Position numbers and translations under genes: made by a program. From a virus, in the IMG/VR virus record IMGVR_UViG_3300032240_002801, positions 1-30,176 of that record: DNA of 30,176 nt; one strand, given 5' to 3'. The notes beneath the pieces are model-generated. The model was not told the origin of the DNA. It did no database searches and saw nothing but the letters and a program-made list of their open reading frames with translations. Shown one piece after another: positions 15,101 through 27,510 of the stretch; the first letter of the stretch is position 1, and every line of letters starts with the position of its first letter.

Positions 15101-15822
15101 ATATTGGAATTGGATCTAGTCTGTTATTGAAAATGAATTCAACACCAGGGATTGGCACTAAGGCAATCATATACGCCACAGTTTCTTCTGCAGGAACAAT
15201 AACTTCGCCATTTAATATAGTTAATCCTGGTTATGGATATACAACAGATAATCCACCTCAAATTATTGCACCTATGCCATCTTTTAAAAATGAATTAGTA
15301 GAAAATATACAATTTGTTGAGGGATTTGCTGGAATAATTACTGGAATTACGACATGTCCAGGAATTGGAACGGACATGGCTATTAAATTTTTTACTTCAT
15401 ATGATCAAAATTCATCAATAGAAACATTACAAGTTGGTTATCCAATTTATGTTTTTGATACTGCCGTTGGCAATGGAATAACTTCTATTAATTCTAATGG
15501 ATCTTCTATTATTTCTATAGGAAAATCTTATTGTGATAATGTATATGAAATTCACCGTATAGTGAATTTAAATCTAAGTGGAGAATTAATATGCAATATT
15601 TCGAATAAAACAAATATAAGTGGAATTAATACTTACGGATCAATCCAAAGAGGTAGATTTTCTTGGGGAAGATTTAGTAATATAAAAAGATCATCTTCAC
15701 CAATATCCATCGGTTTAAGTGGATATACTGCAACTTCTGGATTATCAACTTTCCCAATTATTCAAAGACGTGGGTATGGATTAAGAGATCTTGGTGGTTT
15801 GGTGAAAATAGTTATTGGATAA
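3103..15822 (+). CDS. giant virion structural protein in the gp7 position (VrlC-like)
   Basis: A single uninterrupted frame of 4239 residues, 42 percent of the window. It lies between gp6 and gp8, where T4 has gp7 (1032 residues), and resembles the large VrlC-like structural proteins of cyanophages. In order: a helical head with I-P-E-F-I and FLEFLRQYY (about 1-230); I-D-D-E-I-I-T-Y modules (about 80-125 and 325-365); several G-x-G-Y repeats (about 735, 935, 1075-1185, 1412, 2046-2150, 3620, 3986-4060); a YHYH-like domain (about 1235-1355); a conserved phage tail block with NLSYSIKS and LVHPIGTKNF (about 2411-2445); INGVMQ motifs (3196, 3792); and the tail motif LSTFPIIQRRGYGLR close to the C-terminus. 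It is probably a baseplate wedge or fibre-like protein. Homology to T4 gp7 itself is not evident by eye. No frameshift was seen. Confidence 0.88.
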   Translation: MISKNFESRIKINQIIDNQIPEFILEENPKFLEFLRQYYISQEFEGAPTDLIENLDQYLNFDYLNEKLISDTIYLSSNITAESKSITVSSTKGFPKKYGLLKIDDEIITYEEINNNTFLGCSRGFSSITSFNDFQNPEELIFSSSKASSHKSNSVVTNLSSLFLKEFYKKLKYIFSPGFEDFEFSPELNINTFISKIKSFYQSKGTDESIKILFKVLYNETPKIINLENFLIKPSDAEYLRRSVVVCDLITKNANPFKLVGQQIKSNDGSFSGPVSKVDISTKNNKTVYKIHLFYGYGDDDLIEGNFTITPKSKVTDFVEVGASTITVDSTVGFKNSGTFVCDGQEIKYESKSVNQLYGCSGVLKSINSGEDLYFKDYVVYGYEDGNTSKKIEFIVIGSLYDVEGIENFNLLKPNDIVNLGEFGQDIRFDIQNKTIKEYAFNSWIYNTRTSYDIQYFTLGSPVIDTYEEPHPTSLKTNDIVDILLKDTEMVVLKDVVVNSILNNKITLDTPISGIFPQQKIVIRRKYNYALSSIIPLKYNNILSNVQNTYVYKDDMYVASNSLPSREITLDIKQSSKNILNSKDANEFFDGILGGMYTILSFDNEVPFLTGDVVKYFHTTSSPINGLQNNPEFYVEVLPQKNKIRLYSAISFLAVKDFLRFDKNNQIGQHKFVLIQHSSQIINPSNSLKKISLNQNLNLDENQIETKSGVIGSLINGVDIINYKSTDKVYYGPLERIDVSNPGFDYDVINPPQVEITPPNTGIGTTAKVNLIVTGNFKDVLVDPQQFGIERIISISAKGGNGKNAVFEPIIKKQYREIIFNAQTLDFGGSIDIVNDSFIFKEPHGLDNGQKIVYNSNGNLGIGIGSFAGSNLDSGNYLINGGIYLTKVLNSKSIQIFSSTSDLNSGINTIGITTVNTYGIHKFRIYEPIKVLSYVRVVNPGEGYSYKSLNINPSGISTQTNIIKFKEHNFNDGDLINYSYDQEPILGLSTSKKYYVLKIDDNSFQLSDGGEINDDETSTSKLNYIKRNPTSISSVGNGYHTFSYPKISVEVLAEYSGITSAIQLTPIVRGKVTGAYLYDPGSDYGSTALNLNIKPLITIKKGSGAQLKPLIFNGKIISVQVQNKGSNYDKSIDLTVIGSGIGCKLRAVVIDGLIDSVIVLNSGVGYDNSTTITISSLGQGVVLVPTIRSLIVNDYYRYPGEFYLENREKTGLTYAVNGYYSNREGVEFNDPNPTIFHSRIIGWAKDGNPIYGPYGYKDPFNFSSQVAALKSGYELQSSNINNRPSLDILPAGFFIDDYKFTNSGDLDEHNGRFTKTPEFPNGIYAYFASTKLDVSTSAKTEIVPEFPYFIGNSFRSKPIDNFILDQNLDLDDKKLLRNTFPYRVNRKNSRNYFLPKNYGLKQSCEIKSVDSGSIESITVQVSGSGYSVGDSVIFDNTDTNGSGASAVVSSIFNGVNIEKINTTYTQYQNVAFSWENANTIVVTILPSHNFLDQDYIQISGLSTSSIKGLNGNHKIKVDTESSILLKDLSSANAVGVITDIYLDKPLQNVSVGSNVSIGNEQFTILNIFEDNILRCQRSQVGISHTASSTVTEIPCKFKINLNTDNFVSNNKSIVYFNPNLSIGVGTADGLNILFTQYYGDFVKKVSIPTRSIYLPNHPFETNDVISLSVSPSLGSVSITVSNSPSSSQFSIPAEVNESIELYVIKKSKDFIGIVTQIGLTTTSSGLYFISNGSDRYNYKFEKVQPTNKVVTGTASKIKSQIITSNPHGLTNGETVNLEVIPKTNSGGITTSLPLKVKYNSNFHKLLVNPVTFNSSGINTSKNTITIPSHKFYSGQKVFYNTENYVNGGISTGIYYVNKVDSNIIKLCETYYDSVSFPVQELNIQNVGGNGQELSSINPQIISIKNNNLSFDLSDSSLTGYNLNIFYDKKFNKNFVSTGLTSRFNVETIGIPGSNGSLTINYDSSIPPLYYTLTKDGYPIFSNTSENDYQIIFTESLYNKTNYVVSGASNTSFYVSLNNIPENLQYISGENVSIRYYTTSKNTTGPIHSIKLLSGGSGYTQLPRIIGIDTSFSKRISGNSALISIESNSIGRFKSIEIPNDGFDYPSDKTLRPSANLNTLLLLTNNEEISEIKVINGGKNYLSKPNFVLVDTLSRKKVSPGIMELSLNGSSIGSIKIISRPKGLASSTHKLCTVNNSNGVTITGVTTTVNGIVHANVRTPPIYGFSTPPFVPGDYIFVEGVQKGPSEDEFGNITFPGDGFNSEDHGYNFFKVVDFINDAGSAVLKYDVSPYTLNPGIPVISQTIYSSAINQNIYPVFEITQIKSNFVDGEDLYLNETPTQIKIKGLLNNAINVSRTSDAIKRYDVIKGTISNSKAIVSDIFEYSARFNYSSLTRASVGWSNDTGKLNFDTQSLPDNDYYQNLSYSIKSNIEYDKFSEAVNKLVHPIGTKNFGEIGFSSSSKTSIGGTSSLSTVLNLDNENSVDVIKNYDLVLDYEPFSGSSSNIKLLNKKLSNYIECKSNRVLPIDDISNSFSSSEFNKDQFLESVSYDIGGFYSKFLVQVYNTPQNEGEEKSFQLSDLVILNDFKNTYTLNKSDLYTNFSLGYFEGNLNNVGDPTLIFNPADPYNTKYELKIYRESFTLPNVTGFGITDYGFLRLFSEARTVKNQIGFTTSVFRALSADYHTIHSSSLVINTRDYSLNYYEVVGTYDGTNTHLSEFYFDSSQYLGGFSGGYIGTFGLVENSGILSLNFTNNTNDNIVIKSKTVAIGKTSLGEGVHRFLVEDQIPGSEKTSRIESDYSYITGISTIKTFDSSVESGLKSLIRVSVGSTVSVYQILVISDQVYTKLQSDPFITVGTSVGLGTFSTLNDGSIVNIIFHPDSKFVSTKLLIQSIDQFIYAENDEYNIPQILSYGPARERLYINQYGSINNYGKDRLDFDLNWNRIPIFEKIFNPKNIKQFDISTGIFTINNHFFENNEKLIYTPGSTLIGVAASSIGISTTLVGGTYFVGDSIVGFKTVTGIASSEGIIDTYSNVFYGPNVANGTKIVSIGKTYSYFVGSVSSGSTVITGIANTSILKIGSGIFSGNNTQYGTIVSIGINSITSSVNLPTSNNILYYANNLNYSVTLNNVSTATTFRNTYQVGIITNICPSTVYAKKLGENTFTLTGTKNGIGFTFTDYGSGNFHKLEMEKKLEKTVLTINGVMQAPLTYTPLTKSLSGNNNGLVSTGTTFISLSGISSIQPIDILKVNDEYMTVISVGVGTTSSGPITGIGTVQLCNVNRGTLGSIGSTHLDNSEVRIYKGSYNIVGNKIWFSEAPDGKGNNALFADNYLPLPKSTFNGRVYLRKDYTTNKIYDDISLQFTGIGRTFTLYNKGNVVSDSKPGNSILILNDIFQSPDTETNTGNNYETLTNDGISSIRFKGITLPNTSESFTVDYDVNQNDLPRGGVLVSLAFTGGYGYAPLIGVPSEVLDIRVGTGGSIRYIGFTTSIIVGLAVTGYIGVTTNKITGINTGGIKINQKVMNILNKYIDEIKFVPQYVNLKVPNKTDILQFDTLVSGIGSNSITLSKTTTNTSSLTTSFGFDFGEEFRGSGYYSTVSVAITDTSHVGSAATIIAKVGSGGSITEFNIIQGGTGYTNPKVSISDPSYQNLSIEGIYRPSIGYTKQTGIGLSISLEVSPSQRTGIGSTTSYISDFTITKPGYNFELGDIFTVSGLTTAKGFTNPLEKLIFTVTEVKGDTFASWQVGEFDFIDSIKSLQNGVRTRFPLVRDNKLLSFEKSKTDPAAAIIDFSTILLIFINGVMQEPGVSYTYTGGTTFKFVEPPQAADNIAIFFYRGTKDVDSVEITVYPSIKPGDTIQIKKNNSLPLSLDQDPRVISYVTSSDTFETGIYFGQGIDELNPKPINLIRQKTDIITNNIIQYKDRDSLEPIVLPTAKIIKSVNSLDNEIFVDNAEFFNYEENNFDLNIASFDAIIIDSITQVSAALTATVSSSSTISNINIINGGSGYIGIGSSLLLKMNSTPGIGTKAIIYATVSSAGTITSPFNIVNPGYGYTTDNPPQIIAPMPSFKNELVENIQFVEGFAGIITGITTCPGIGTDMAIKFFTSYDQNSSIETLQVGYPIYVFDTAVGNGITSINSNGSSIISIGKSYCDNVYEIHRIVNLNLSGELICNISNKTNISGINTYGSIQRGRFSWGRFSNIKRSSSPISIGLSGYTATSGLSTFPIIQRRGYGLRDLGGLVKIVIG
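6310..6660 (+). repeat. G-x-G-Y beta repeats, cluster 1 of the giant protein
   Basis: Three consecutive units at about residues 1075-1185 share the pattern small-G-S-x-Y: DPGSDYGS, NKGSNYDK and NSGVGYDN. Each is preceded by a strand that reads like I-x-x-V-x-V and is separated from the next by about 35 residues. The same unit occurs in gp8, gp14 and the DUF4815-type protein of this window. Confidence 0.6.
6808..7170 (+). other. region encoding a degenerate YHYH-like domain
   Basis: Residues about 1235-1355 of the giant protein contain IIGWAKDGNPIYGPYGY (1240-1256) and later LDEHNGRF (1306-1313) and PEFPNGIYAYF (1317-1327), then EFPYFIG. This order is that of the YHYH domain family. The eponymous Tyr-His-Tyr-His is Tyr-Ala-Tyr-Phe here, so both histidines are missing and any metal or ligand site built on them is probably lost. 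Confidence 0.72.
9238..9560 (+). repeat. G-x-G-Y beta repeats, cluster 2 of the giant protein
   Basis: Three units at about residues 2046-2150: SGGSGYTQLPRI, NDGFDYPSD and NGGKNYLSKPNFVL. Spacing and pattern match the units in cluster 1 and in gp14. Confidence 0.6.
15061..15270 (+). repeat. G-x-G-Y beta repeats, cluster 3 of the giant protein
   Basis: Two units near the C-terminus, NGGSGYIGIG and NPGYGYTTDNPPQI, about 50 residues apart. A related unit, QGGTGYTNPKVSI, lies upstream at about 13974-14010. Confidence 0.6.
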
Positions 15823-15857: not shown

Positions 15858-17420
15858 ATGGCGGCAATAGTTACTGACCAATTTAGAATATTAAATTCTA
15901 AAAATTTTCTAGATTCGGTTAGAGATCCAAGTAACTCTTATTACATATTTTTATCTTTACCAAATCCCTCTCAAGTTGGATTTGGTAGAACTTCAACTTG
16001 GGATTCTTCTATTCCAACTCCAGAAGATAGTTTTAATTACTTAGATCATGTTAAAGATACTATTCTTTTTGGTAAAAGAATAACATCCGATAATATTAGA
16101 AGATTAATAAGAAAAGTTTCGTGGGAAAAAAATACAATATATGAGATGTACAGACATGATTATTCTGTACAAAATCCATCTCCCAAAACAAACTCATATA
16201 GATTATATGATGCAAATTATTATGTAATCAACAAAGATTATCGAGTTTACTTATGTATTGATAATGGATCAAAATCAATTAATAGATTGGGAAATCCTTC
16301 TCAAGATGAACCACTTTTTATAGATTTAGAACCATCAAGAGCTGGAGAAAGTGGGGATGGATATATTTGGAAATATTTGTTTACAGTTTCTCCAAGTGAT
16401 ATTATTAAATTTGATTCTATTGAATATATACCAGTTCCTGCAGATTGGGAAACATCAACTGATCCTGATGTTAGAGCAGTTAGAAATAGTGGAGATTCTT
16501 TAGTAAATGACAACCAGATAAAAAAAGTTTATATAGAAAATCCAGGATCTGGGTATAATTCATCGACAGAATCTTTAGACATATTGGGTGATGGTGAAGG
16601 AGCTAAAGTTATTGTTGATGTTGTTGGTGGAAAAATAAATGATGTATTAATTTCAAATGGTGGAAAAAATTACACTTATGGTAGAGTTGATTTGTCCCCA
16701 ATAAATCAAGGTGCAACTTCTTTTGCCCATTTAATTCCAATTATACCTCCATCAAGAGGACATGGATTTGATGTGTATAAGGAATTGGGATGTGAAAGAG
16801 TTTTAGTTTATGCAAGATTTGACGATTCTACAAAAGATTTTCCCACTGATATAAAATTTGCACAAATAGGAATTCTTAAAAATCCAACATTATCTGGATC
16901 TGCAACATCAATATATAATGATACTACCTTTTCAAATTTATATTCTGTAAAATTAAATGCAAATACAATTTCATTACCCGAAACAGTAACACCGGGAACA
17001 AAAATATACCAAACAATATCTGGAGTTGGAACTGCAGTTGGATATGTTGCTTCTTATGATAATGAAACAAAGGTTTTAAAATATTTTGTAGATAGATCTT
17101 TATATTTTAATGATATAACATATGACCAAAAAGACTCAAAGAATGTTTTCGTTCAAGGAAATAATATTGGATTTTCAACCGCAGGAAGTTTAATAACTTC
17201 TCAATCTGGATTTAGTGCAGCAATTGATCCTACATTTCAAGAAAGTGTTTTAGTTGTATCTAATACAAAATCTGTCAATTTAAATTCAACGTTTGTTAAT
17301 GGGATTTCTCAACCAGAAATAAATAAAAGATCTGGTGAAGTATTATATATTGACAGTAGACCTATTGTCAATAGAAATCCAAAACAAAAAGAAGACATTA
17401 AAATAGTACTGGAATTTTAA
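15858..17420 (+). CDS. 8: baseplate wedge subunit gp8, with repeat insertion
   Basis: Homologue of T4 gp8, a dimeric wedge protein that binds gp7, gp10 and gp6. Matches include AIVTDQFR at the N-terminus (T4 AIVTSKFR), ESGDGYIWKYLF (about 164-175; T4 EPGDGYVWEYLF), EYIPVP shortly after it, and a C-terminal SGEVLYIDSRPIV block ending in IKIVLEF (T4 SGEMIYMENRPPI and INILFTF). At 520 residues it is much longer than T4 gp8 (334). Part of the extra length is a glycine-rich repeat segment (about 222-275) carrying two G-x-G-Y-like units, so the T4-like core has been opened by an insertion. No clear Shine-Dalgarno precedes ATG 15858. The DUF4815-type gene follows after six bases. Confidence 0.92.
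   Translation: MAAIVTDQFRILNSKNFLDSVRDPSNSYYIFLSLPNPSQVGFGRTSTWDSSIPTPEDSFNYLDHVKDTILFGKRITSDNIRRLIRKVSWEKNTIYEMYRHDYSVQNPSPKTNSYRLYDANYYVINKDYRVYLCIDNGSKSINRLGNPSQDEPLFIDLEPSRAGESGDGYIWKYLFTVSPSDIIKFDSIEYIPVPADWETSTDPDVRAVRNSGDSLVNDNQIKKVYIENPGSGYNSSTESLDILGDGEGAKVIVDVVGGKINDVLISNGGKNYTYGRVDLSPINQGATSFAHLIPIIPPSRGHGFDVYKELGCERVLVYARFDDSTKDFPTDIKFAQIGILKNPTLSGSATSIYNDTTFSNLYSVKLNANTISLPETVTPGTKIYQTISGVGTAVGYVASYDNETKVLKYFVDRSLYFNDITYDQKDSKNVFVQGNNIGFSTAGSLITSQSGFSAAIDPTFQESVLVVSNTKSVNLNSTFVNGISQPEINKRSGEVLYIDSRPIVNRNPKQKEDIKIVLEF
16519..16692 (+). repeat. G-x-G-Y beta repeats inserted in gp8
   Basis: Two units, ENPGSGYNSSTESLDI and SNGGKNYTYGRVDL, about 43 residues apart and each preceded by a short strand (KKVYI, NDVLI). 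T4 gp8 has no counterpart in my recollection of its sequence. Confidence 0.55.
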
Positions 17421-17426
17421 ATTAAA

Positions 17427-20400
17427 ATGGCAAAAACAAATTTAAACGTATCACCATATTTTGATGATTTTGATACAACTAAAAACTTTTACAAAGTTTT
17501 ATTTAAGCCAGGATATCCAGTTCAGGCTAGAGAATTAACTACATTACAAACTATATTACAAGATCAAATATCTTCTTTAGGAAAAAGTATTTTTAAAGAT
17601 GGATCAGTTGTTGTTCCTGGTGAAGTCTCTTATGATCCAAATTATTATGCAGTTAAAATAAATCCTATTCATTTGGGATTAGATGTAGAATTTTACTACA
17701 AAGAGTTGATAGGAAAACGTTTGTTGGGGGATATTTCTCAAGTTACTGCAGTAGTTCAAAATGTTGTTTCTAGAAATAATTCTATTGAAAATGTAACAAC
17801 ATTATATGTAAAATATTTAAATTCTAATTCCAGTAATGAAAATCTAAGTTTTATTGATGGAGAAACTTTAACAACTTTAGATAATGTAAAATACGGAAAT
17901 ACAACTATATCTTCAGGAAATACTATTGCTTCACTATTAGATACTAATTCAACTGCAATTGGATCAGCAGTATCTATTTCTCCAGGAATTTATTTTATAC
18001 GTGGTTTGTTTGTTACTGTCGATCAAGATACAATTATATTAGATCAATATAATAATACTCCGTCATATAGAGTTGGTTTATCAGTATCTGAAACTTTTGT
18101 ATCTTCATATGATGATTCTTCTTTATATGATAATGCTAAAGGATTTACGAATTATTCAGCTCCAGGAGCAGATAGATTTAAATTAAAAACAAAATTATCA
18201 AAACAACTTTTAACAGATTACCAAGATACTAATTTTATAGAAATATTAAGAGTTGCTGGTGGTGTTGTTAAAAAAATAAAAGACACTAGTGATTACTCTT
18301 TAATAAGGGATTATATTGCAAAAAGAACTTATGAGCAATCTGGAAATTTTGCATTAAGTCCTTTTTCAGTTTTTGTTGAAGATTCATTAAATAATTTAAC
18401 AGATCAAAAAGGAATTTTTAAACAAAATCAAAAAACTGAGCAAAATAATACTCCAAGTGAAGATTTAATTTGTGTTAAAATTTCTTCAGGAAAAGCTTAT
18501 GTTAATGGTAATGATATTGAAAAATCTTCAACAACAATATTAGATGCAAAAAAAACAAGATCGGTAAATACTGTATTAAATTCTCCCATTTTGTTCGAAA
18601 TGGGTAATTTAATAGTATTAAATAATGTTTCTGGATCTCCAGCAATTGGTTTAAATAATAACTATGAGATTAGATTATTTGGTGATAGAAAATCTAGCAA
18701 TATTGTAGGATCTGGAACAACTATAGGAAAAGCTAGGGCTTATTCTTTCTCTGCTAGTGATAGTCCATATAAGGATCAGTCCAGTAGATGGAATCTTTAT
18801 GTTTATGATTTACAAACTTACACAACTATAACAGTAAATTCAAACGTTACAAATGATGTTGTAAAATCTTCATTTGTAAAAGGATTAAGTAGTGGTGCCT
18901 CTGGATATGTAGCAGAAAATCCAAATAATGGAAGAACAGTATTTTTATATCAAACTTCGGGATCTTTTAGTAAAAATGAACAAATAATATTTAATAATAA
19001 TAAAAATTTAATAAGAACGGTAGAAAAAATAAAAGTTTATAATCCAAAAGATATAAAATCAGTATATCAAAAATCTTCGGATGTATCTTTAAGTGGATTA
19101 TCTACTGATTTTTCTGCAGATGTATTTTTACAAAAAAATATTGCTCCTGGATTTAGTCCATCAGATACTATAACAATTCAACCAGCAGTTTCCGGAATTA
19201 GTACAGTTAATTCTCCGGGAAAAACTTTCTCAGGAATAAAAACAGATTCTATTATAAGATATCAAGTAGCAGGATTTTCTACAGAAACTTATAATAAAGT
19301 TGTATCCATAAGTGAAGATGGTTTAAGTATGAATGTGGTTGGAGTTACAACTGTCCTTAACGTTTGTGTTGGTTCTCTTCCATCAGGATCTTCAGTATCT
19401 GCATTATTTTCTTTAGGCGAATCAACCGTTAAAAATAAAGATAAATCAAATTTATATATCAATCTTCCAAATAAAAACGTTTCTTCTGTAGATTTATCAT
19501 CTTCATCAATAACGATAAAAAAACAAATATCTCAAAAAAGTACTTCAAGTGTTGGAACACTTTCATTATCAGTTTCTGGAGATTTTTCAATTAGCAGTGG
19601 ATATTTTGAACCTTTTTCTCCGGAAAGATATTCTATTTTTTATGGTGACGGAACAGTAGAAAATTTAACTTCCGAAAAAATAGAAATAACAAATAGTGGA
19701 GAAAATATATCTTTTTATGGTTTAAAACAATCCCAATCTGGAAATGTATCTGTTATTTGCACAATAACTAAAAATTCTGTTCGCAATAAAACAAAACTTT
19801 ACAAAAAAAGTGAGAAATTATTGATTTCAAAAACATCTTTAGGTATTTCAAACGGAATTAGTGGATTAACAACTAGTATACATTATGGAACTAGAGTAGA
19901 AGATGATGAAATATGTTTGAATGTTCCCGATGTTTCTAACATTTTAGCAATATATGAATCATCTAATTCAGAATCTCCAATTTTGGATAAACTAGTATTT
20001 TCTTCACAATCAATATCTAATGCAATTGTTGGGGAAAAAATATATGGATCTTTAAGTGAAGCAGTTGGACAAATTACAGATATTCAAGGAACTGATGTTA
20101 GTTTTGTTTATTTAAATTCAAATAAATTTCAAACTAATGATATTGTAAATTTTGAAGAATCAAAAATATCAACTTCAGTATTAAATGTTGTTCCTGGAGT
20201 TTATATAAACAGAAGCAACGATTTTACTTTAGATAAAGGGCAAAAAGATCAATATTATGATTATTCCAAAATAGTTAGAAATTTTGGATCTAATTCCCCA
20301 GCAAAAAAATTATTAATAATTTTTGATTATTTCCAAGTTTCTGAATCAGACTCTGGAGATTTATATACCGCAAATAGTTACAATTCATCAAATTTTAAAA

Positions 20401-23400
20401 ATGATGTTCCTATTTTAAAAAATGGATATAGATCTTCTGATGTATTAGATTTTAGACCAAGAGTATCTAAATTTACATCACAATCATCATCTCCTTTTGA
20501 TTTTTCTAGTAGAAATTTTTCAACGGCACAATCAAACATACAAATAGTTGTATCACCGAATGAATCTACTAAAGTTTCATATTCTCATTATGTCCCCAGA
20601 ATAGATAAATTAATTTTAAATAAAAATGGCAATTTCCAATTAATTACGGGTTCATCAGCAGTAAATCCACAACAACCGTCTTCTTTAGAGGACGGTATGG
20701 ATATTGCAAATATAGAAATACCAGCATACGTTTATAATGTAGATGATATTAAAATTTCTCTAATTGAAAATAAAAGATATACAATGAGAGATATTGGAAC
20801 TTTAGAAAACAGGATTAAAAATCTTGAAAACTTTGCATCATTAAGTTTATTAGAATTAGATGTTAAATCTCTACAAATTATTGATAATGAGGGATTAGGA
20901 TTAGCAAAATATAAATGTGGATTTTTTGCAGATAGTTTTATAAATTCCAATTTAGTTGATTATAAAAATCCAGATGCAAAAGTTTCAATTAATTCCGAAG
21001 ATGGTGAAATGACTACTGATGTATCTATTACATCTCTTAAAACTCAAGTATTACCAAGTCAAGGAACAAATTTAGAAAATGCTGATTATTCTCAAAATTT
21101 AGATTTAATCGATGCTAATATTAAAAAAACAGGTGATTTAGTTACTTTAAATTATTCTGAAGTTGAATGGGGAGATATATCCCAACCTTTTGCAACAACT
21201 AAAGAAAATATTAATCCACACGGATTATCGGATTATAACGGAAGTGTTAAACTTCGTCCTTCAACTGATGCTTGGGTTAAAACTATAAACTCAATTAAGG
21301 GTAAAGTTATAAGAACTCAAAGTGAGTGGAAAAATAGTTATCTATCAAATTTATATTTGTCTGGGGAAACTAGTAATAAAATGAGATCAAGAAATATTGA
21401 ATTTCTTGGATCAAATTTATTTCCTCTTTCAAAGCATACTCCATATTTTGATGGATCAGCATCTTTTGATGTAATTCCAAAATTATTAAAAATATCTATG
21501 ATATCTGGTATTTTTAGTGTTGGAGAAATTATAGATGGTTATGAAGGAAATGTAAAAGTATTTTCCGCTAGATTATGTACACCAAACCATAAATATGGTC
21601 CTTATAATTCACCATCAGAAACTTATCCAAGCAATCCATATCAAACTTCAGAAATACTTTCTGATTATTCTCAATCAACTACAGTTTTAAACATAGATAC
21701 ATATTCTTTAGCAGATAATGCTGATGGTAGATTCTATGGTTATGTTTCCTATAATATGGTTTTAGTTGGAAGATCTAGTGGAGCTCAGTGTACTGTAAGT
21801 AACCAAGATCTTATTTCTGATAAATATGGAGATTTAATAGGGTGTTTCTTTATTAGAAATCCCTTTTCGCCATTATTGCCACCAAATGTATTTAATGTAG
21901 GGGATAAAACTTTTAAATTAGAAACAGCAACTAATACACAATCCACATCAGCAATACAAATAAAGCAAGGTCTTTGCGAGTCTACACTATATCTATCGGA
22001 AAATTCAAATTTTTCCAATAACAGTATTATTAGAAGACCAGTTTTAACTAGATCTTCAGTTTTATCATCAAAAAGTTATTTGACTCAAACATTTAAAGTT
22101 GATACCTCTGGTGGATTTTTAACTTCTATTGATTTATTTTTTGCAGAAAAAGATAATAATGAAAAAGTAACTATTGAGATCGGTGAAGTTGATCTTGGTG
22201 GAACTCCAACAAATAAATTACTACAAGATTTTGCTAGAGTTCAACTCTTACCAAATCAAGTCAATATTTCTAATGATGGTGAAGTTGCTACTAATGTTAA
22301 ATTACCATCACCTCTTTATTTGGAACCAAATAAACAATATTGTATAAGAATTTATTCACCATCATCTTCTTTATATTCTCTTTGGACTGCAGTATCGAAT
22401 GAAGCAACCGTTAAAACTCAAAACTATCCCAATACACAACAAATAATATATTCTAATCAATTTATAGGTGGTAATTTATACAAACCACAAAATGGTGCCA
22501 TTCCTTCAGCATCCTTATTACAAGATTTAAAATTTAAAACCTATAAAGCTCAATTTGTTTCTGCTGGAACAGTATTCTTTACAAATCCTATTCTTTCCGA
22601 TACATCTTCAGGAGAATTTTATGACAGTAATAATGATAAATTAGTATCAAATCCAATAACAGGTTTTCCCCAAAAATATATAATTGGAATTTCTACTTCT
22701 TATGCTAATGATTTTTATACATTTGGTAAAAAAATACAATTTTCAAATGGAAATTATGGATTTATAGAAAAATCTGGAGGAAAAATATCAGGAATAACAA
22801 CCACAAATGTCGGAATAGGATACTCTGATGGAGTTTATTCAAATGTTCCATTATTTACAGTAAATGGATTTGGTCCTAATGTATATGGAGCTACTGCTAA
22901 TCTAACATTTACTGGTGGAAAACTAAGTAAAACAGTCATAGTAGATACGGGAAGTGGATATTTAAAAGGAGATTTATTGGGAATTTCAACAGGATATAAT
23001 CCAAAAGGAACTGGGGCATTAATATCAGTTTCCAATTTAAATGGAATTGATGCTTTATTACTGACTAATGTCCCAGGAAAAACAATTCAATTGGGAAATA
23101 CTTTATCTTATTTTGATGAAAATGGCGTACAAGTTTCTTTAGCAGGAACTACGGTATTACAAACTCCAAAGATTTTAAATGATCTATACAGTGGAGGCGT
23201 ATTTAAAGTCGAACATTATAATCATGGTATGCATGATGATAATAATTACATTACCATTAGTGGTGTATTCCCAGATACAACTCCTCAACAGTTAACATCA
23301 AACATAACAGCAGAATCTAACACAATATCTGTTGCAAGTACTTCAACATTTTCTAGTTTTGATGGTGGTTCTGTTGTTGGTTTTAATACAGGATATGTTT

Positions 23401-24512
23401 TAATTAATAATGAAATTATTGCATATACTTCTGTTAATGCAAATACATTACAAATTTCATCCAGAGGAGTTAATTATTCTACAATTAGAAATCATAATTC
23501 TGGCGATATGGTATATAAGTATGAGTGTAATGGTGTTTCTTTGATGAGAATTAATACAACGCATAGAAAATCAAATTCACAATATTTAAAATCATTAGAA
23601 ACTTCAGACAATTATTACTTAAAATTTTCTAGTGAAGAATTTAGCAATTCCACATTTATTGAAGAGAAAACATTTGGGGGATCTAATTGCAAAATAACTC
23701 AAAATTATCAATACAATTCAATTATACCAAAATTTAATATATTAACTCCTCCAGGAACATCTTTAAATAGTTCAATTAGAACAATATCTGGAACTAGTGC
23801 TTCTGGATCAGAATCATCATTTGTTGATCAAGGTCTTCTTCCATTATCTTTAAATTCAAAAAATGATTTTGATACACCAAAATTAATAGCATCTAGAATT
23901 AATGAAATTAATAATCTTTCAGGAACTCCTAGATTAAAATCTATGCTTATTTCTTTGACTTTAAGAACAAGAGATTCAAATATTTCTCCAGTTATAGATA
24001 CGGTTGAAGGTGCTACAGTTGCACTTATTAGAAATAAATTAAATAATCCAATATCAAATTATATTACTGATAATAGATCAAATTTATTAATAAATGATCC
24101 ACATTCTTCAATTTACATATCTAATCAAATTATTTTACTGAAACCAGCATCTTCCCTTAAAGTAATAACAAATTGTTATAGATCTTCATCTAATGATTTT
24201 AGAGTATTATATAAACTAATACGTCCAGATTCTAGTGAAGTTGACCAATCATATGAATTTTTCCCAGGATATAGTAATTTAAAAGACATAAATGGAGATG
24301 GTATTGGTGATACAATTATAGATACTTCACTTAATGATGGAACTTCTGATTTTTATGTTGGTTCGACTACGGAAGGTGAATATTCCGAATATGAATTTAC
24401 TGCAGAAAATTTAGGTCAATTTGTTGGATTTGTTATTAAGATAGTTATGAATGGTTCAAATGAAGCCAGACCATTAAAATTTAAGGATATTAGAGCAATT
24501 GCATTAGCATAA
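17427..24512 (+). CDS. large virion structural protein, DUF4815 type
   Basis: A 2361-residue structural protein. The N-terminus (NVSPYFDDFDTTKNFYKVLF, then PGYPVQARELTTLQTILQ and IFKDGSVVVPG, about 7-67) is typical of DUF4815 proteins in marine myoviruses. A central MRDIGTLENRIKNLE block (1120-1135) with a following LSLLELD predicts a short helix. A domain opening with LTQTFKVDTSGGFLTSIDLFF (about 1552) resembles a beta-sandwich found in many phage tail proteins. Later come G-x-G-Y repeats (about 1785-1890), an I-N-N-E-I-I-A-Y module (about 1960-2015) and a conserved C-terminal domain (FRVLYKLIRPDSSEV, FPGYSNLKDINGDGIGD). It occupies the place of T4 gp9-gp12, so a baseplate periphery or host-contact role is inferred, not shown. 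It begins six bases after gp8. Confidence 0.85.
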   Translation: MAKTNLNVSPYFDDFDTTKNFYKVLFKPGYPVQARELTTLQTILQDQISSLGKSIFKDGSVVVPGEVSYDPNYYAVKINPIHLGLDVEFYYKELIGKRLLGDISQVTAVVQNVVSRNNSIENVTTLYVKYLNSNSSNENLSFIDGETLTTLDNVKYGNTTISSGNTIASLLDTNSTAIGSAVSISPGIYFIRGLFVTVDQDTIILDQYNNTPSYRVGLSVSETFVSSYDDSSLYDNAKGFTNYSAPGADRFKLKTKLSKQLLTDYQDTNFIEILRVAGGVVKKIKDTSDYSLIRDYIAKRTYEQSGNFALSPFSVFVEDSLNNLTDQKGIFKQNQKTEQNNTPSEDLICVKISSGKAYVNGNDIEKSSTTILDAKKTRSVNTVLNSPILFEMGNLIVLNNVSGSPAIGLNNNYEIRLFGDRKSSNIVGSGTTIGKARAYSFSASDSPYKDQSSRWNLYVYDLQTYTTITVNSNVTNDVVKSSFVKGLSSGASGYVAENPNNGRTVFLYQTSGSFSKNEQIIFNNNKNLIRTVEKIKVYNPKDIKSVYQKSSDVSLSGLSTDFSADVFLQKNIAPGFSPSDTITIQPAVSGISTVNSPGKTFSGIKTDSIIRYQVAGFSTETYNKVVSISEDGLSMNVVGVTTVLNVCVGSLPSGSSVSALFSLGESTVKNKDKSNLYINLPNKNVSSVDLSSSSITIKKQISQKSTSSVGTLSLSVSGDFSISSGYFEPFSPERYSIFYGDGTVENLTSEKIEITNSGENISFYGLKQSQSGNVSVICTITKNSVRNKTKLYKKSEKLLISKTSLGISNGISGLTTSIHYGTRVEDDEICLNVPDVSNILAIYESSNSESPILDKLVFSSQSISNAIVGEKIYGSLSEAVGQITDIQGTDVSFVYLNSNKFQTNDIVNFEESKISTSVLNVVPGVYINRSNDFTLDKGQKDQYYDYSKIVRNFGSNSPAKKLLIIFDYFQVSESDSGDLYTANSYNSSNFKNDVPILKNGYRSSDVLDFRPRVSKFTSQSSSPFDFSSRNFSTAQSNIQIVVSPNESTKVSYSHYVPRIDKLILNKNGNFQLITGSSAVNPQQPSSLEDGMDIANIEIPAYVYNVDDIKISLIENKRYTMRDIGTLENRIKNLENFASLSLLELDVKSLQIIDNEGLGLAKYKCGFFADSFINSNLVDYKNPDAKVSINSEDGEMTTDVSITSLKTQVLPSQGTNLENADYSQNLDLIDANIKKTGDLVTLNYSEVEWGDISQPFATTKENINPHGLSDYNGSVKLRPSTDAWVKTINSIKGKVIRTQSEWKNSYLSNLYLSGETSNKMRSRNIEFLGSNLFPLSKHTPYFDGSASFDVIPKLLKISMISGIFSVGEIIDGYEGNVKVFSARLCTPNHKYGPYNSPSETYPSNPYQTSEILSDYSQSTTVLNIDTYSLADNADGRFYGYVSYNMVLVGRSSGAQCTVSNQDLISDKYGDLIGCFFIRNPFSPLLPPNVFNVGDKTFKLETATNTQSTSAIQIKQGLCESTLYLSENSNFSNNSIIRRPVLTRSSVLSSKSYLTQTFKVDTSGGFLTSIDLFFAEKDNNEKVTIEIGEVDLGGTPTNKLLQDFARVQLLPNQVNISNDGEVATNVKLPSPLYLEPNKQYCIRIYSPSSSLYSLWTAVSNEATVKTQNYPNTQQIIYSNQFIGGNLYKPQNGAIPSASLLQDLKFKTYKAQFVSAGTVFFTNPILSDTSSGEFYDSNNDKLVSNPITGFPQKYIIGISTSYANDFYTFGKKIQFSNGNYGFIEKSGGKISGITTTNVGIGYSDGVYSNVPLFTVNGFGPNVYGATANLTFTGGKLSKTVIVDTGSGYLKGDLLGISTGYNPKGTGALISVSNLNGIDALLLTNVPGKTIQLGNTLSYFDENGVQVSLAGTTVLQTPKILNDLYSGGVFKVEHYNHGMHDDNNYITISGVFPDTTPQQLTSNITAESNTISVASTSTFSSFDGGSVVGFNTGYVLINNEIIAYTSVNANTLQISSRGVNYSTIRNHNSGDMVYKYECNGVSLMRINTTHRKSNSQYLKSLETSDNYYLKFSSEEFSNSTFIEEKTFGGSNCKITQNYQYNSIIPKFNILTPPGTSLNSSIRTISGTSASGSESSFVDQGLLPLSLNSKNDFDTPKLIASRINEINNLSGTPRLKSMLISLTLRTRDSNISPVIDTVEGATVALIRNKLNNPISNYITDNRSNLLINDPHSSIYISNQIILLKPASSLKVITNCYRSSSNDFRVLYKLIRPDSSEVDQSYEFFPGYSNLKDINGDGIGDTIIDTSLNDGTSDFYVGSTTEGEYSEYEFTAENLGQFVGFVIKIVMNGSNEARPLKFKDIRAIALA
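22765..23090 (+). repeat. G-x-G-Y beta repeats in the DUF4815-type protein
   Basis: Units TTNVGIGYSDGVYSNVPLFTV and VDTGSGYLKGDLLGI lie about 45 residues apart and are separated by an alanine/glycine-rich strand (GATANLTFTGGK). They follow the same layout as the units in the giant protein, gp8 and gp14. Confidence 0.55.
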
Positions 24513-24709
24513 TGATACCAATAGAAGGACATAAAAATTTATATAGAGATGAAAATACTGGTGCAATATTGAATGCAGATAATATTGAATATAATAATTA
24601 TATTAAATTGAGAGAAGAAAAACTTAAACAAAAAAATGAAATTGATAATTTAAAAAAAGAATTATCAGAAATTAAATCTTTAATAAGGGAGTTATTAAAT
24701 GGATCCTGA
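24512..24709 (+). CDS. small coiled-coil protein of cyanophage type
   Basis: A 65-residue protein. The N-terminus (GHKNLYRDENTGAILN) matches a small uncharacterised protein I recall from this position in T4-like cyanophages. The C-terminal half (about residues 28-62, LREEKLKQKNEIDNLKKE and on) is highly charged with hydrophobic residues at heptad-like spacing and should form a coiled coil. Its ATG overlaps the stop of the preceding gene by one base (TAATG), and its own end overlaps the next gene by 11 bases, so all three are probably translationally coupled. The function is unknown; a chaperone or adaptor for the long structural protein upstream is only a guess. Confidence 0.8.
   Translation: MIPIEGHKNLYRDENTGAILNADNIEYNNYIKLREEKLKQKNEIDNLKKELSEIKSLIRELLNGS
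24685..24691 (+). promoter_or_regulatory. ribosome binding site of the 62-residue gene
   Basis: AAGGGAG lies seven bases before ATG 24699 and inside the end of the previous gene. It is one of the strongest Shine-Dalgarno sequences in the window and supports this very short gene as real. Confidence 0.6.
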
Positions 24710-24887
24710 CAAAATTGAACTAGAAAATTTGAGTAAAAGTTTTGAATATTATAAATTTACTTCCGAAATAGATAATATTGATAATATTGAAGATTTAAAA
24801 AATATAGCAAAATCTTATTTCAAATTGTATTTGAAGCAACAAGAGGTTTTATCTTCACTTGCAGTTTTCAACAAAAATGAAACATAA
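24699..24887 (+). CDS. small conserved cyanophage-type protein
   Basis: A 62-residue acidic, mostly helical protein. ELENLSKSFEYYK, the aspartate/isoleucine-rich middle (EIDNIDNIEDLKNIAKSYFK) and LYLKQQEVL resemble a small uncharacterised protein that accompanies the preceding one in marine T4-like phages. It has no cysteine, signal peptide or membrane segment. It overlaps its upstream neighbour by 11 bases and has a strong AAGGGAG ribosome binding site. The last codons overlap a candidate late promoter, which makes this the probable end of the gp8-DUF4815 unit. The function is unknown. Confidence 0.78.
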   Translation: MDPDKIELENLSKSFEYYKFTSEIDNIDNIEDLKNIAKSYFKLYLKQQEVLSSLAVFNKNET

Positions 24888-24890
24888 ATA
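24883..24890 (+). promoter_or_regulatory. probable late promoter before the neck gene block
   Basis: CATAAATA differs from the late octamer TATAAATA only in the first base. It overlaps the stop codon of the previous gene and lies 30 bases before ATG 24920, close to the 26-27 base spacing of the two exact octamers in this window. It would drive the small structural protein and gp13 to gp16. Confidence 0.5.
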
Positions 24891-24919
24891 TTTTATATAT
24901 TACTTATGGCACTAGAATA

Positions 24920-25258
24920 ATGGCCTCAATATATGTAAGTAATCTGGTTATTAATTCTGGAGCATCTTTTTCTCAAAATTTTTTTCTAGAGGATAGTGCC
25001 ACAAATTCTGCAATGAATTTATCTTCGGCAAGTATACAATCCCAAATGAGAAAGTGGTCTGGAAGCACGGGAGTAACAACTTTCACATCTTCTATTGTCA
25101 ATTCTCAAACTGGACAAATTAGAATTAGTTTAGGTTCTAGTATAACATCATCATTAAAACCAGGAAGATATGTTTATGATGTATTATTGACGAATAATAG
25201 CACAACTACAAGAGTTGTTGAAGGTATGGCTTTAGTTAGAGAAGGAGTTACAAGGTAA
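24920..25258 (+). CDS. small virion structural protein, beta-rich
   Basis: A 112-residue protein with an alternating strand pattern: IYVSNLVINSGASFSQNFFL, then IQSQMRKWSGS, then a C-terminal GRYVYDVLLTN and EGMALVREGVTR. This layout is common in small phage proteins related to the N-terminal domain of baseplate upper protein BppU and in small structural proteins of marine myoviruses. It is serine-rich, has no cysteine, signal peptide or membrane segment, and stands immediately before gp13. The start at ATG 24920 has no strong Shine-Dalgarno; the nearby ATG at 24906 leads to a stop after four codons. A part in the baseplate, neck or a head/tail decoration is inferred from position only. Confidence 0.78.
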   Translation: MASIYVSNLVINSGASFSQNFFLEDSATNSAMNLSSASIQSQMRKWSGSTGVTTFTSSIVNSQTGQIRISLGSSITSSLKPGRYVYDVLLTNNSTTTRVVEGMALVREGVTR

Positions 25259-25262
25259 AAAT

Positions 25263-26108
25263 ATGTCTAAACCCGCATCCAGACAACAATTAGTAGAATA
25301 TTGTTTGAGAAAATTAGGTGCTCCTATATTAGAAATTAATGTCGATGATGACCAAATAGATGATGCAGTAGATGATGCTCTTCAATATTTTCACGAAAGA
25401 CATTTTGATGGTGTCGAAAGAATGTATTTGAAATACAAAATAACACAAGAAGATATTGATAGAGGTTCTGCAAATGCAAAATCTCCAGTTGGTTCTGGAA
25501 TAGTTACAACGACTGGACAATCAAATATTAATGGTGTTTCTAAAACATTTAGTTTTTACGAGTCCTCAAACTATATACAAGTTCCAGATTCTGTAATTGG
25601 CGTTGAAAAAATATTCAAATTTAATTCTAGCACAATATCTTCAGGGATGTTCAGTATTAAATACCAATTATTTTTAAATGATTTGTATTATTTTAATTCT
25701 ATAGAACTTCTGCAATATTCGATGGTAAAATCATATCTCGAAGATATTGACTTTTTGCTAACCACAGATAAGCAAATTAGATTTAACAAAAGACAAAATA
25801 GATTATATTTAGATTTTAATTGGGAAGGAAATAATGCTGGAGATTTTTTGCTAATAGACTGTTATAGAATCTTAGATCCAAATGATTTTACTAAGGTATA
25901 TAATGATAGTTTTGTTAAAAAATATTTAACTGCATTAATTAAAAAGCAGTGGGGACAAAATTTAATAAAATTTAGAGGTGTTAAACTTCCAGGTGGAGTT
26001 GAATTAAATGGAAGAGAAATATATGAAGATGCTGAAAGAGAATTGGAAGATATCAAACAAAGAATGACACTAGAATATGAACTTCCACCATTAGATATGA
26101 TTGGTTGA
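25263..26108 (+). CDS. 13: neck protein gp13 (head completion)
   Basis: Homologue of T4 gp13, which with gp14 seals the portal vertex after DNA packaging and forms the neck to which the tail attaches. The N-terminus contains the conserved EYCLRKLGAPILEINVDDDQIDDAVDDALQYF stretch (about residues 11-42, seen here in parts) and the following FHERHFDGVERMYLKYK. At 281 residues it is near the T4 length of about 309. It starts four bases after the previous stop behind an AAGG, and gp14 starts one base after its stop. The gp13-gp14-gp15-gp16 order is the same as in T4. Confidence 0.93.
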   Translation: MSKPASRQQLVEYCLRKLGAPILEINVDDDQIDDAVDDALQYFHERHFDGVERMYLKYKITQEDIDRGSANAKSPVGSGIVTTTGQSNINGVSKTFSFYESSNYIQVPDSVIGVEKIFKFNSSTISSGMFSIKYQLFLNDLYYFNSIELLQYSMVKSYLEDIDFLLTTDKQIRFNKRQNRLYLDFNWEGNNAGDFLLIDCYRILDPNDFTKVYNDSFVKKYLTALIKKQWGQNLIKFRGVKLPGGVELNGREIYEDAERELEDIKQRMTLEYELPPLDMIG

Positions 26109-26109
26109 T

Positions 26110-27510
26110 ATGGCATTAAATTCATTTTTTCTTCAAGGATCTCCTGGAGAGCAACGATTAATACAAGAATTAATAAATGAACATTTAAAAATATATGGTG
26201 TTGAAGTTTTATACATACCTAGAAAATTTGTCAGAAAAGATACTATTTTTAGAGAAGTTCAAACATCAAGATTTGATGATAATTATTCTATTGAGGCATA
26301 CGTTAGTAATTTTGATGGTTATGGTGGATCTGGAGATATTTTAACTAAATTTGGGATGAGTTTAAGAGATGAATTAACATTAATAATTTCAAAAGAAAGA
26401 TTTGAAGATTTTATTTCTCCATTTTTAGAAGGAATGGATGATAATGAAATAGTTTTAACAACAAGACCTAGAGAAGGTGATATTATTTACTTTCCTCTTG
26501 GTAAAAGATTATTTGAAGTTAAATTTGTTGAACATGAACAACCATTTTACCAATTAGGAAAAACTTATGTTTATGAATTAAAGTGTGAATTATTTGAGTA
26601 TGAAGATGAAATTGGAGGATTTTCTGATGTTAGCACTGCGGTTGATGAAATAGATAATACTTTGCAGCAACAAGGATATATTACATCTTTACAACTATTT
26701 TCCTTTGGCCAAACTGCAAATGCTACATCTACAATTTCTAGTAGATACGTTAGAAGAATATTTATTAATAATGATGGTAATGGTTATACTGGAATTCCTA
26801 CAGTAGGTTTTTCTCCAGCACCATCCGGTGGAACATCAGCTTCTGCGGTAGCTATTACTACATGTAAAGGTGGAATTTGTTCAATAAAAGAAATATTATT
26901 AATTAATCCAGGATCTGGATATACTTCTATACCAAGTGTCACTATATATTCTAATGGAAGTGGTGTTGGTGCAGCAGCAACTGCAGAAATTGTAGAAGGA
27001 TCATATGGTGTTGGTGTTGTTGGAATTAGTAGTTATGGTGAAGGTTATGTAAGACCTCCACTAGTAACGTTTAGTAACCCTACAGTTGGATCTGGAATTA
27101 CTGCAAAGGGAATTTCAGTTGTTGGAACATCTGGATCTATAACTCAAATATTAATAAGAGATGCTGGTATTGGATATAGTAGTTCCCCATCAATAACAAT
27201 TGCTCCACCTCCTCTTTTAACTGGAATAGGTACTTATGCCTTCAATGAAATAATAAGAGGATCAGAATCTGGGACAACTTCTAGAGTTAAATCTTGGGAT
27301 AAAGATACAAATATTTTAACTCTTGGGGTAATTGATGGGTCATTTATTCCTGGAGAAACAATAGTTGGAACTTCATCTTCAGCAATATATACTTTAAAAA
27401 CAGTATCTGGAACTGAATTTTCCGATAAATATGAACAGAATGATCAAATAGAAGAAGAGGCAGATCTAATTCTAGACTTTACAGAATCAAATCCATTCGG
27501 TAATTACTAA
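26110..27510 (+). CDS. 14: neck protein gp14, with repeat insertion
   Basis: Homologue of T4 gp14, partner of gp13 in the neck. The first 180 residues match the family: YGVEVLYIPRKFV (T4 RGVECYYVPREYV), FGMSLRDELTLII, EGDIIYFPLGKRLFEV and QPFYQLGKTY. The C-terminal ESNPFGNY corresponds to the T4 ending ESSPFDND. At 466 residues it is nearly twice T4 gp14 (256). Much of the difference is an inserted segment (about 210-375) with four G-x-G-Y repeats. The start is placed at ATG 26110, one base after the gp13 stop; an in-frame TTG at 26101 would overlap gp13 and adds only three residues. The stop overlaps the gp15 ATG (TAATG). Confidence 0.92.
   Translation: MALNSFFLQGSPGEQRLIQELINEHLKIYGVEVLYIPRKFVRKDTIFREVQTSRFDDNYSIEAYVSNFDGYGGSGDILTKFGMSLRDELTLIISKERFEDFISPFLEGMDDNEIVLTTRPREGDIIYFPLGKRLFEVKFVEHEQPFYQLGKTYVYELKCELFEYEDEIGGFSDVSTAVDEIDNTLQQQGYITSLQLFSFGQTANATSTISSRYVRRIFINNDGNGYTGIPTVGFSPAPSGGTSASAVAITTCKGGICSIKEILLINPGSGYTSIPSVTIYSNGSGVGAAATAEIVEGSYGVGVVGISSYGEGYVRPPLVTFSNPTVGSGITAKGISVVGTSGSITQILIRDAGIGYSSSPSITIAPPPLLTGIGTYAFNEIIRGSESGTTSRVKSWDKDTNILTLGVIDGSFIPGETIVGTSSSAIYTLKTVSGTEFSDKYEQNDQIEEEADLILDFTESNPFGNY
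26749..27210 (+). repeat. four G-x-G-Y beta repeats inserted in gp14
   Basis: The clearest set in the window: DGNGYTGIPTVGF, PGSGYTSIPSVTI, YGEGYVRPPLVTF and AGIGYSSSPSITI, spaced about 40-45 residues apart. Each is led by a strand such as RRIFI, KEILLI or TQILI and followed by a glycine/alanine-rich linker. They define the consensus used to recognise the more diverged copies elsewhere. Confidence 0.75.

Follow-up and report, generated by a model that had tools for sequence, protein, structure and literature searches.

Paired beta-units shared by neck and baseplate proteins of a marine T4-like phage and a variable array on gp14

Picocyanobacteria and SAR11 are hosts of marine T4-like phages, which are abundant viruses. 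In T4, domain I of the tail sheath protein gp18 protrudes from the tail and binds retracted fibres, and the substitutions G106S, S175F and A178V inhibit retraction (PMC3004832). At the T4 neck, gp13 binds fibritin, the wac protein, via residues 190-239, and once the tail is attached, residues 178-256 of gp14 contact gp15 extensively (PMC12270204, a preprint). Cyanomyoviruses have been reported without wac and several T4 fibre genes (PMC2984593). Here we describe a beta-unit of about 42 residues in IMG/VR virus record IMGVR_UViG_3300032240_002801, a 30,176-base T4-like marine myovirus record analysed as a whole and called the window below. The units form a real family in four of its proteins, namely the neck protein gp14, the baseplate protein gp8, a giant protein in the gp7 position and a DUF4815 protein. 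We tentatively read them, at a confidence just short of probable, as an exposed, tunable platform of paired beta-units on the neck, the same module being fixed in the baseplate proteins. The variable, fast-changing array on the neck is unusual beside the fixed baseplate inserts.

A first profile was built from the gp14 units of the window and 80 homologues, with 11 reversed and 1,100 shuffled sequences as controls. Its scores were 14.6 bits for gp8 217-236 and 8.6-16.6 bits for five sites in the giant protein, above the control maximum of 7.6, whereas the DUF4815 protein did not rise above the controls (2.1 bits; 4.4 bits with a profile of unit 4, against a control maximum of 8.1). The iterated profile was run over 8,214 open reading frames (ORFs) and the same ORFs reversed, giving 1,345 units of at least 10 bits in 474 ORFs. 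The reversed set had no hit at that threshold; its background came to 22 hits at 6 bits and six hits at 8 bits. The consensus after the final iteration was TSGSISSITITNGGSGYTTAPTVTISSPPTGSGTTATATAVV. In the window there were four units in gp14, two in gp8 and 11 hits in the giant protein (4.9-31.4 bits); the best DUF4815 site by the iterated profile (22911-23018, 7.2 bits) was near background. An earlier note, made from the letters of this DNA, had proposed one repeat family in these four proteins, and its site list lacked two sites of the giant protein, 5293-5406 (31.4 bits) and 7333-7446 (21.1 bits).

We then compared the gp14 array, profile against profile, with 303 sliding segments, 289 of them outside gp14; gp25 and gp6 had no homologues in the alignments. 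Among the top 33 non-gp14 segments, 32 overlapped a unit and one contained a GxGY-like site. Scores reached 41.3 in the DUF4815 protein, 37.5 in gp8 and at most 61.3 in the giant protein, compared with 23.9 for the best segment with neither a unit nor a GxGY-like site, and some unit-bearing segments ranked lower (giant 1351-1440, 23.1; DUF4815 1831-1920, 22.2). Judged from sequence, DUF4815 membership appears firm only in this comparison. In addition, gp14 and gp8 both matched the independent PHROG profiles phrog_2885 (at 1076-1165) and phrog_701. The proposal of a single family was thus confirmed by the profile and profile-profile results together. Glycine-rich beta turns might instead have arisen by convergence, without common descent, as a short, glycine-rich unit and the near-background DUF4815 score of the single-profile search would allow; the absence of reversed hits at 10 bits, the lead of unit-bearing segments in the ranking and the PHROG profiles common to gp14 and gp8 make this explanation scarcely credible.

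Units were present in most homologues of the baseplate proteins: at least one was found in 76 of 82 gp8 homologues at 6 bits (64 at 10 bits) and in 70 of 81 DUF4815 homologues at 6 bits (44 at 10 bits). All 78 gp14 homologues had four units at 10 bits, one of them with a fifth at 6 bits, and gp13 and gp15 homologue ORFs had none at 6 bits (0/70 and 0/57, respectively). Outside the four proteins, 12 ORFs of the P-SSM2_118 type and a further 35 unassigned ORFs contained units; those that were listed, 25 in number, lie upstream of gp14 in loci of the S-RIM8 clade. In the collected loci L204-L283, the ORF upstream of gp14 (for example, L264 3-2183) encodes an unassigned protein that contains one to three units. 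Some of these units belong to the GxGYxxGD type, which is the type closest to T4 gp18 domain I. Among whole phage records, 11 of 12 phages had unit matches at E<=0.01 and T4 had none. A search of solved structures with the unit profile returned two BURRH chains at 2.6e-5, which we rejected as a repeat artefact, single stretches not being significant. Literature searches in an open-access subset showed no description of the beta-unit.

Both gp14 and gp8 of the window are of the T4 type. gp14 matched PF11649 (5.7e-31, residues 16-188) and lies in the order gp13-gp14-gp15; gp8 matched PF09215 (2e-9), its fold matched 1n7z_A (Z 15.9, 262 residues), and its model is T4 gp8 with two inserts, namely the unit pair and, at 361-486, a second barrel. 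These data support the earlier statement that the repeats interrupt or extend the T4 cores of the two proteins. The four-unit array of gp14 comprises residues 212-385 (window 26734-27255). Residues 190-440 were predicted with fair to high confidence by AlphaFold2 (AF2), with a block predicted local distance difference test score (pLDDT) of 75-96 over 191-440, as a small barrel from which the four units loop out. In VIA-align the barrel (model range 184-441) superposed on 9f4a_A0 761-847 with a Z of 8.4 over 80 residues, the next row having 5.3; from its length, chain A0 of 9f4a would be a gp7 homologue. Foldseek found nothing for the gp14 model in the PDB at E<=0.001. The 50 VIA-align rows shown for gp14 do not include gp18, which excludes nothing. 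Predicted viral structures resembling the model were neck, baseplate and P22-gp10-type proteins, some from uncultured phages. The true start of gp14 is probably ATG 26110, since the homologue consensus begins MALNPFF.

The number of gp14 units differs between phages. Of the 215 ORFs that have a gp14 core, 173 also have the tail motif and were taken as complete; the 42 without the motif were dropped before counting. At 10 bits, the complete proteins had 0 (3), 2 (64), 4 (76), 5 (12), 6 (17) or 8 (1) units. The number was even in 172/173 at 5-5.5 bits and in 161/173 at 10 bits, and the 12 five-unit proteins had a sixth unit in register at 5.9-9.5 bits. A strictly even number was rejected because odd cases remained at every threshold tried (5 at 4 bits, 1 at 5-5.5 bits, 2 at 6 bits, 6 at 8 bits and 12 at 10 bits); the only odd protein at 5-5.5 bits, from locus L071, had one extra hit of 6.1 bits. 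Two gp14 ORFs of at least 250 amino acids had one unit, and ACG-2014f gp14 had two clear and two doubtful units. Among named phages, T4, DLP6, Cr30 and S-SSM5 have no gp14 units, S-RIM8 and ACG-2014j have two, P-SSM2, S-SM2 and S-SKS1 have four like the window, and S-PRM1 has eight. S-SSM5 nevertheless had 33 unit matches (E<=0.01) in its whole record. Sf-FS3 gp14 contains a laminin-G domain (PF13385, 2.9e-7) among its units, of which there are five, plus a sixth that is weak. A 763-residue gp14 of the type with laminin-G between units is encoded at L193 4001-6292 and has IMG/VR relatives among L284-L321, laminin-G having been tested in L193 only.

The barrel has been used at two places. In S-RIM8 and ACG-2014j an 83-residue pair follows the barrel strand FTVGEEVVG or FTVGEEIVG, whereas in the 4- and 8-unit gp14 types shown the array precedes the matching strand, so two loops of one barrel have received the module, either through separate insertions or through a single insertion and a shift. 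S-SSM5 gp14 has the bare barrel with an empty site, and its core is 74% identical to that of S-RIM8. When the 2-unit gp14s were compared with the rest, 62 of 63 first units were nearest to other gp14s; the second units were nearest to other gp14s in 34/63 and to gp7 in 29/63, and the origin of these inserts is ambiguous by sequence.

The earlier note had suggested a mobile surface module, spreading between structural genes within one genome and perhaps presenting sites for glycan binding or decoration. The occurrence of one family in several genes, the differing gp14 unit numbers, the two insertion loops and the laminin-G domain inside the Sf-FS3 array would fit such a module. However, of 1,303 units, 1,285 had their nearest relative in the same gene of another locus, 18 in another gene of another locus and none in another gene of the same locus, in a test that sees only fairly recent moves, covers many loci without some of the genes and has an "unassigned" class that may lump several proteins. 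The window has all four genes, with DUF4815 units below the 10-bit entry of this test. All 14 window units tested (at least 10 bits) matched the same gene of another phage best, at 53.5-88.2 bits, against at most 27.3 bits for other genes of the window. Insert positions were also fixed and nearly gap-free in 80 gp14, 81 gp8 and 81 DUF4815 homologues, and the DNA of the gp8 piece 16400-16900 had a single other match in the window (44 nt at 80%). With the nearest relatives lying in the same gene elsewhere, recent spread within a genome is not supported; change between phages is supported by the gp14 unit numbers, the empty site and the two loops. As a whole, we consider the mobile-module explanation very unlikely. 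Glycan display is possible on indirect grounds, the laminin-G domain being in an array of another phage type; window gp14 and gp8 had no Pfam match to such a domain at E<=1.

A remote, suggestive link connects the units with T4 gp18 domain I. The gp8 pair (222-298), six-stranded in the model, gave as its only VIA-align rows the T4 gp18 entries 3foa_C, 3fo8 and 3j2m_U (Z 6.0, 5.9 and 5.7, 72-74 residues). Eight unit clusters were built without regard to T4 and tested on T4 gp18 with 2,613 controls; three of the cluster profiles matched gp18 100-118 above all controls (15.0 vs 9.4, 10.3 vs 7.0 and 9.5 vs 6.6 bits). A sub-type chosen after the T4 motif was known scored 16.9 vs 6.0 bits. The retraction residues G106, S175 and A178 fit the gp18 sequence only in numbering with the initial Met removed, and in that numbering G106 is the glycine of TPGSNY, which is aligned with the unit motif.

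We next compared rates of change by the ratio of non-synonymous to synonymous substitution (dN/dS). The gp14 units changed faster than the core: 0.249 vs 0.013 between the window and L003, and 0.185 vs 0.054 (3.4x) against L005. The units had 13-19x the core dN/dS against L003, L004 and L008, which are near-identical to each other and in effect one comparison. For gp14 residues 190-440, the values were 0.227 vs 0.073 (3.1x) against L010 and 0.290 vs 0.083 (3.5x) against L011. The gp8 units were not faster than their core (0.010-0.121 vs 0.041-0.172; above it in 1/5 comparisons). The second barrel of gp8 (16938-17315) was above the same core in 5/5 comparisons, at 0.145-0.409. Because all ratios were <1, they indicate weaker constraint or diversification, and positive selection is not shown. 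Tree length over 44 loci was 12.6 for the gp14 appendage, compared with 4.5-6.2 for gp13, the gp14 core and gp15. gp14 has been described as under positive selection in a cyanophage lineage, with signals within the false-positive rate (PMC5112629).

An account of the route of change, which may hold beside the other readings, is that gp14 appendages are swapped whole between phages, like tail-fibre tips. The core of S-RIM8 gp14 is 40-42% identical to that of ACG-2014j and the appendage 67%. Core and appendage trees of 68 gp14s rejected each other (differences in log-likelihood of 366 and 1219; approximately unbiased test with 2,000 resamplings, too few according to the program), the appendage tree contradicted 12/26 supported core splits, 3,691 incongruent triplets involved 114/131 gp14s, and several pairs showed sharp DNA drops. 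In the control, however, gp13, gp15 and the core conflicted mutually about as often as with the appendage (FastTree on 44 loci; 1-4 supported splits in either direction), and the synonymous rate (dS) of the core was already 0.75-1.46 in three sharp-drop pairs, so fast protein change explains much of the identity drop. Region-wide tree conflict and high core dS led us to treat swapping, which had looked strong at first, as a rival, and we regard it as unlikely.

The array could also replace a T4 collar. The T4 wac protein had no match in 12/13 whole phage records searched, the thirteenth being T4 itself. It matched 1,427 records of the phage collection, with no cyanophage among the ten commonest names listed (the least common with 28 records); as only those ten names are listed, some cyanophages may have wac. 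A St. Kilda cyanomyovirus with whiskers is mentioned as unpublished (PMC2984593). Our guess is that this phage is S-SKS1, which has four gp14 units and no wac match. Two stretches, aligned to T4 171-190 and 197-216, are absent from eight other gp13s, and where exactly they fall depends on the alignment. We consider it improbable that the gp14 array is a built-in collar. On this reading, marine T4-like phages without T4-type fibritin, and with a gp13 short of some 40 residues in or next to the domain that binds fibritin in T4, would have multiplied a fibre-docking module of the sheath type on the neck, and six arrays would hold the retracted fibres and co-evolve with them. The array as a required fibritin substitute was rejected, because S-SSM5, Cr30 and DLP6 lack wac, those gp13 residues and gp14 units alike.

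We return to the neck platform as the preferred explanation. Each unit would be a three-stranded beta element working mostly in pairs, and two units together would probably form one six-stranded barrel like that of T4 gp18 domain I. The module is a fixed insert in the gp8, DUF4815 and gp7-position proteins of the phage lineage. In gp14 it forms an array borne by a loop of the small beta-barrel, which lies after the hexameric neck core and before the conserved C-terminal tail. What may be six such arrays of four units each would, by analogy with the protruding gp18 domain I, point outward as a binding or docking platform, which could be tuned between phages by unit number, occasional pair gain or loss and fast amino-acid change. 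If the platform has a partner, retracted fibres of the phage itself and the surface of the host rank about equal as candidates.

Several results weigh against this explanation. The gp18 structural match is weak (Z about 6, and the tool warns of common arrangements). The Pfam model Gp18_dom_I (PF22639) had no match in the window at E<=10, five of the eight cluster profiles fell below controls on T4 gp18, and three whole-family profiles scored -1.6, 3.3 and 4.6 bits against control maxima of 8.4, 13.1 and 12.2. In the reverse test, T4 domain I against the 303 segments, the gp8 pair and gp14 units were not near the top; three of the first nine segments covered a stretch outside the recognised units, and gp14 segments began only at about rank 29. 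The gp14 core was modelled at a pLDDT of <50, so that the model does not fix the direction of the array. The even counts, drawn from a small number of architectures, are not independent of one another; S-SSM5, Cr30 and DLP6 do without units in gp14; and any binding partner is putative.

The array may alternatively be purely structural, strengthening the gp14-gp15 neck-tail joint and binding nothing outside the particle. It occupies the place of the T4 gp14 stretch that contacts gp15 extensively (178-256; PMC12270204, preprint), the gp8 units and the gp8 core are similarly conserved, and the gp14 C-terminal tail is conserved; set against this are gp14 units that change faster than the core and number 0-8, and the laminin-G domain within one array type. 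On balance a purely structural role seems possible, if somewhat unlikely. For fibre holding and host contact in marine T4-like phages without T4 fibritin, this beta module, with its possible link to a T4 domain, and the gp14 array, with its varying length and fast change, give a concrete target that can be deleted in cultured phages.

Table 1. Coordinates of the beta-units and associated features in the window
Feature	Position	Strand	Basis
gp14 (neck, head-closure) gene	26101..27510	+	listed from TTG 26101
gp14 T4-type core, residues 4-185	26110..26655	+	PF11649 16-188; T4 gp14 chains match 17-170
gp14 small beta-barrel, first strand, residues 190-200	26668..26700	+	AF2 model, VIA-align
gp14 unit 1 (212-256)	26734..26868	+	unit profile
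gp14 unit 2 (257-298)	26869..26994	+	unit profile
gp14 unit 3 (299-341)	26995..27123	+	unit profile
gp14 unit 4 (342-385)	27124..27255	+	unit profile
gp14 small beta-barrel, remainder, residues 386-440	27256..27420	+	AF2 model, VIA-align
gp14 conserved C-terminal tail DFTESNPFGNY	27475..27507	+	homologue alignments
gp8 unit 1	16506..16607	+	21.7 bits
gp8 unit 2	16629..16700	+	11.9 bits
gp8 two-unit module, residues 222-296, matched to T4 gp18 domain I	16521..16745	+	VIA-align Z 6.0, 5.9, 5.7
gp8 second inserted beta-barrel, residues 361-486	16938..17315	+	VIA-align eIF2-gamma rows Z 3.8-4.7, weak
DUF4815 protein, two weak units, residues 1784-1864	22776..23018	+	hhalign 41.3; second 7.2 bits by hidden Markov model
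Giant protein unit 731-768	5293..5406	+	31.4 bits
Giant protein weak unit 933-958	5899..5976	+	4.9 bits, within background
Giant protein units 1113-1149, 1152-1181	6439..6645	+	13.1 (6439-6549), 19.3 (6556-6645) bits
Giant protein unit 1411-1448, GxGYxxGD type	7333..7446	+	21.1 bits; T4 gp18 link
Giant protein units 2042-2069, 2124-2145	9226..9537	+	14.1 (9226-9309), 10.6 (9472-9537) bits
Giant protein units 3585-3612, 3614-3641	13855..14025	+	8.7 (13855-13938), 21.7 (13942-14025) bits
Giant protein T4-gp18-like stretch, residues 3688-3707	14164..14223	+	top row, T4 gp18 domain I vs 303 segments; missed by unit profiles
Giant protein units 3984-4026, 4030-4054	15052..15264	+	10.3 (15052-15180), 9.8 (15190-15264) bits

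The genes of the window are gp25, gp6, the gp7-position protein (4,239 amino acids, matching phrog_2885), gp8, the DUF4815 protein (2,361 amino acids), gp13, gp14, gp15 and a small-terminase-like gene. The order is that of Prochlorococcus phage P-SSM2, whose gp7 ORF has 5,195 amino acids. The giant protein also contains a YHYH domain (PF14240, 2e-24; residues 1238-1333, window 6814-7101). In the record of Pelagibacter phage Mosig (L196; 14722-17346 and 21471-27608), the name VrlC is given to the protein after gp8, and the protein in the gp7 place has only about 875 residues; papers that have VrlC in place of gp7 may mix up two proteins. A metabolic gene, S-adenosylmethionine decarboxylase-like (127-468; PF02675, 9.4e-29), adjoins the baseplate genes. 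Between the DUF4815 gene and the one that follows it are two unlabelled small ORFs, 24512-24709 (65 amino acids) and 24699-24887 (62 amino acids), and a small ORF at 24920-25258 matches phrog_3304, "L-shaped tail fiber protein assembly" (9.3e-34).

Compared with described systems, window gp14 shares its core (16-188, PF11649) with T4 gp14, which has 256 residues and no units. Its carrier barrel aligns in one row of Z 8.4 with a gp7 domain V-type barrel (9f4a_A0 761-847; PF21427 at 766-861 in T4), whereas PF21427 itself had no match in the window at E<=10. The array is like the T4 fibritin collar in being a neck appendage, fibritin having a part in long-tail-fibre retraction (PMC3004832), and differs from it in that fibritin is a trimeric coiled coil to which gp13 binds. 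The extra domains described in sheath proteins of phages are likewise beta domains added to tail proteins and proposed to serve adhesion or stability, but they are mostly Ig-like and located in the sheath (PMC9230969). With T4 gp18 domain I (PF22639) no connection was made by the Pfam model or the whole-family profiles. The units and domain I are both inserted beta modules of a T4-type tail, some unit sub-types appear to have a strand-turn-strand stretch in common with it, and the gp8 pair aligns with it at a Z of about 6. T4 carries this domain as a single copy in the sheath, whereas the units described here, mostly of the GxGYxxxPxVxI type, occur in several copies in neck and baseplate proteins.

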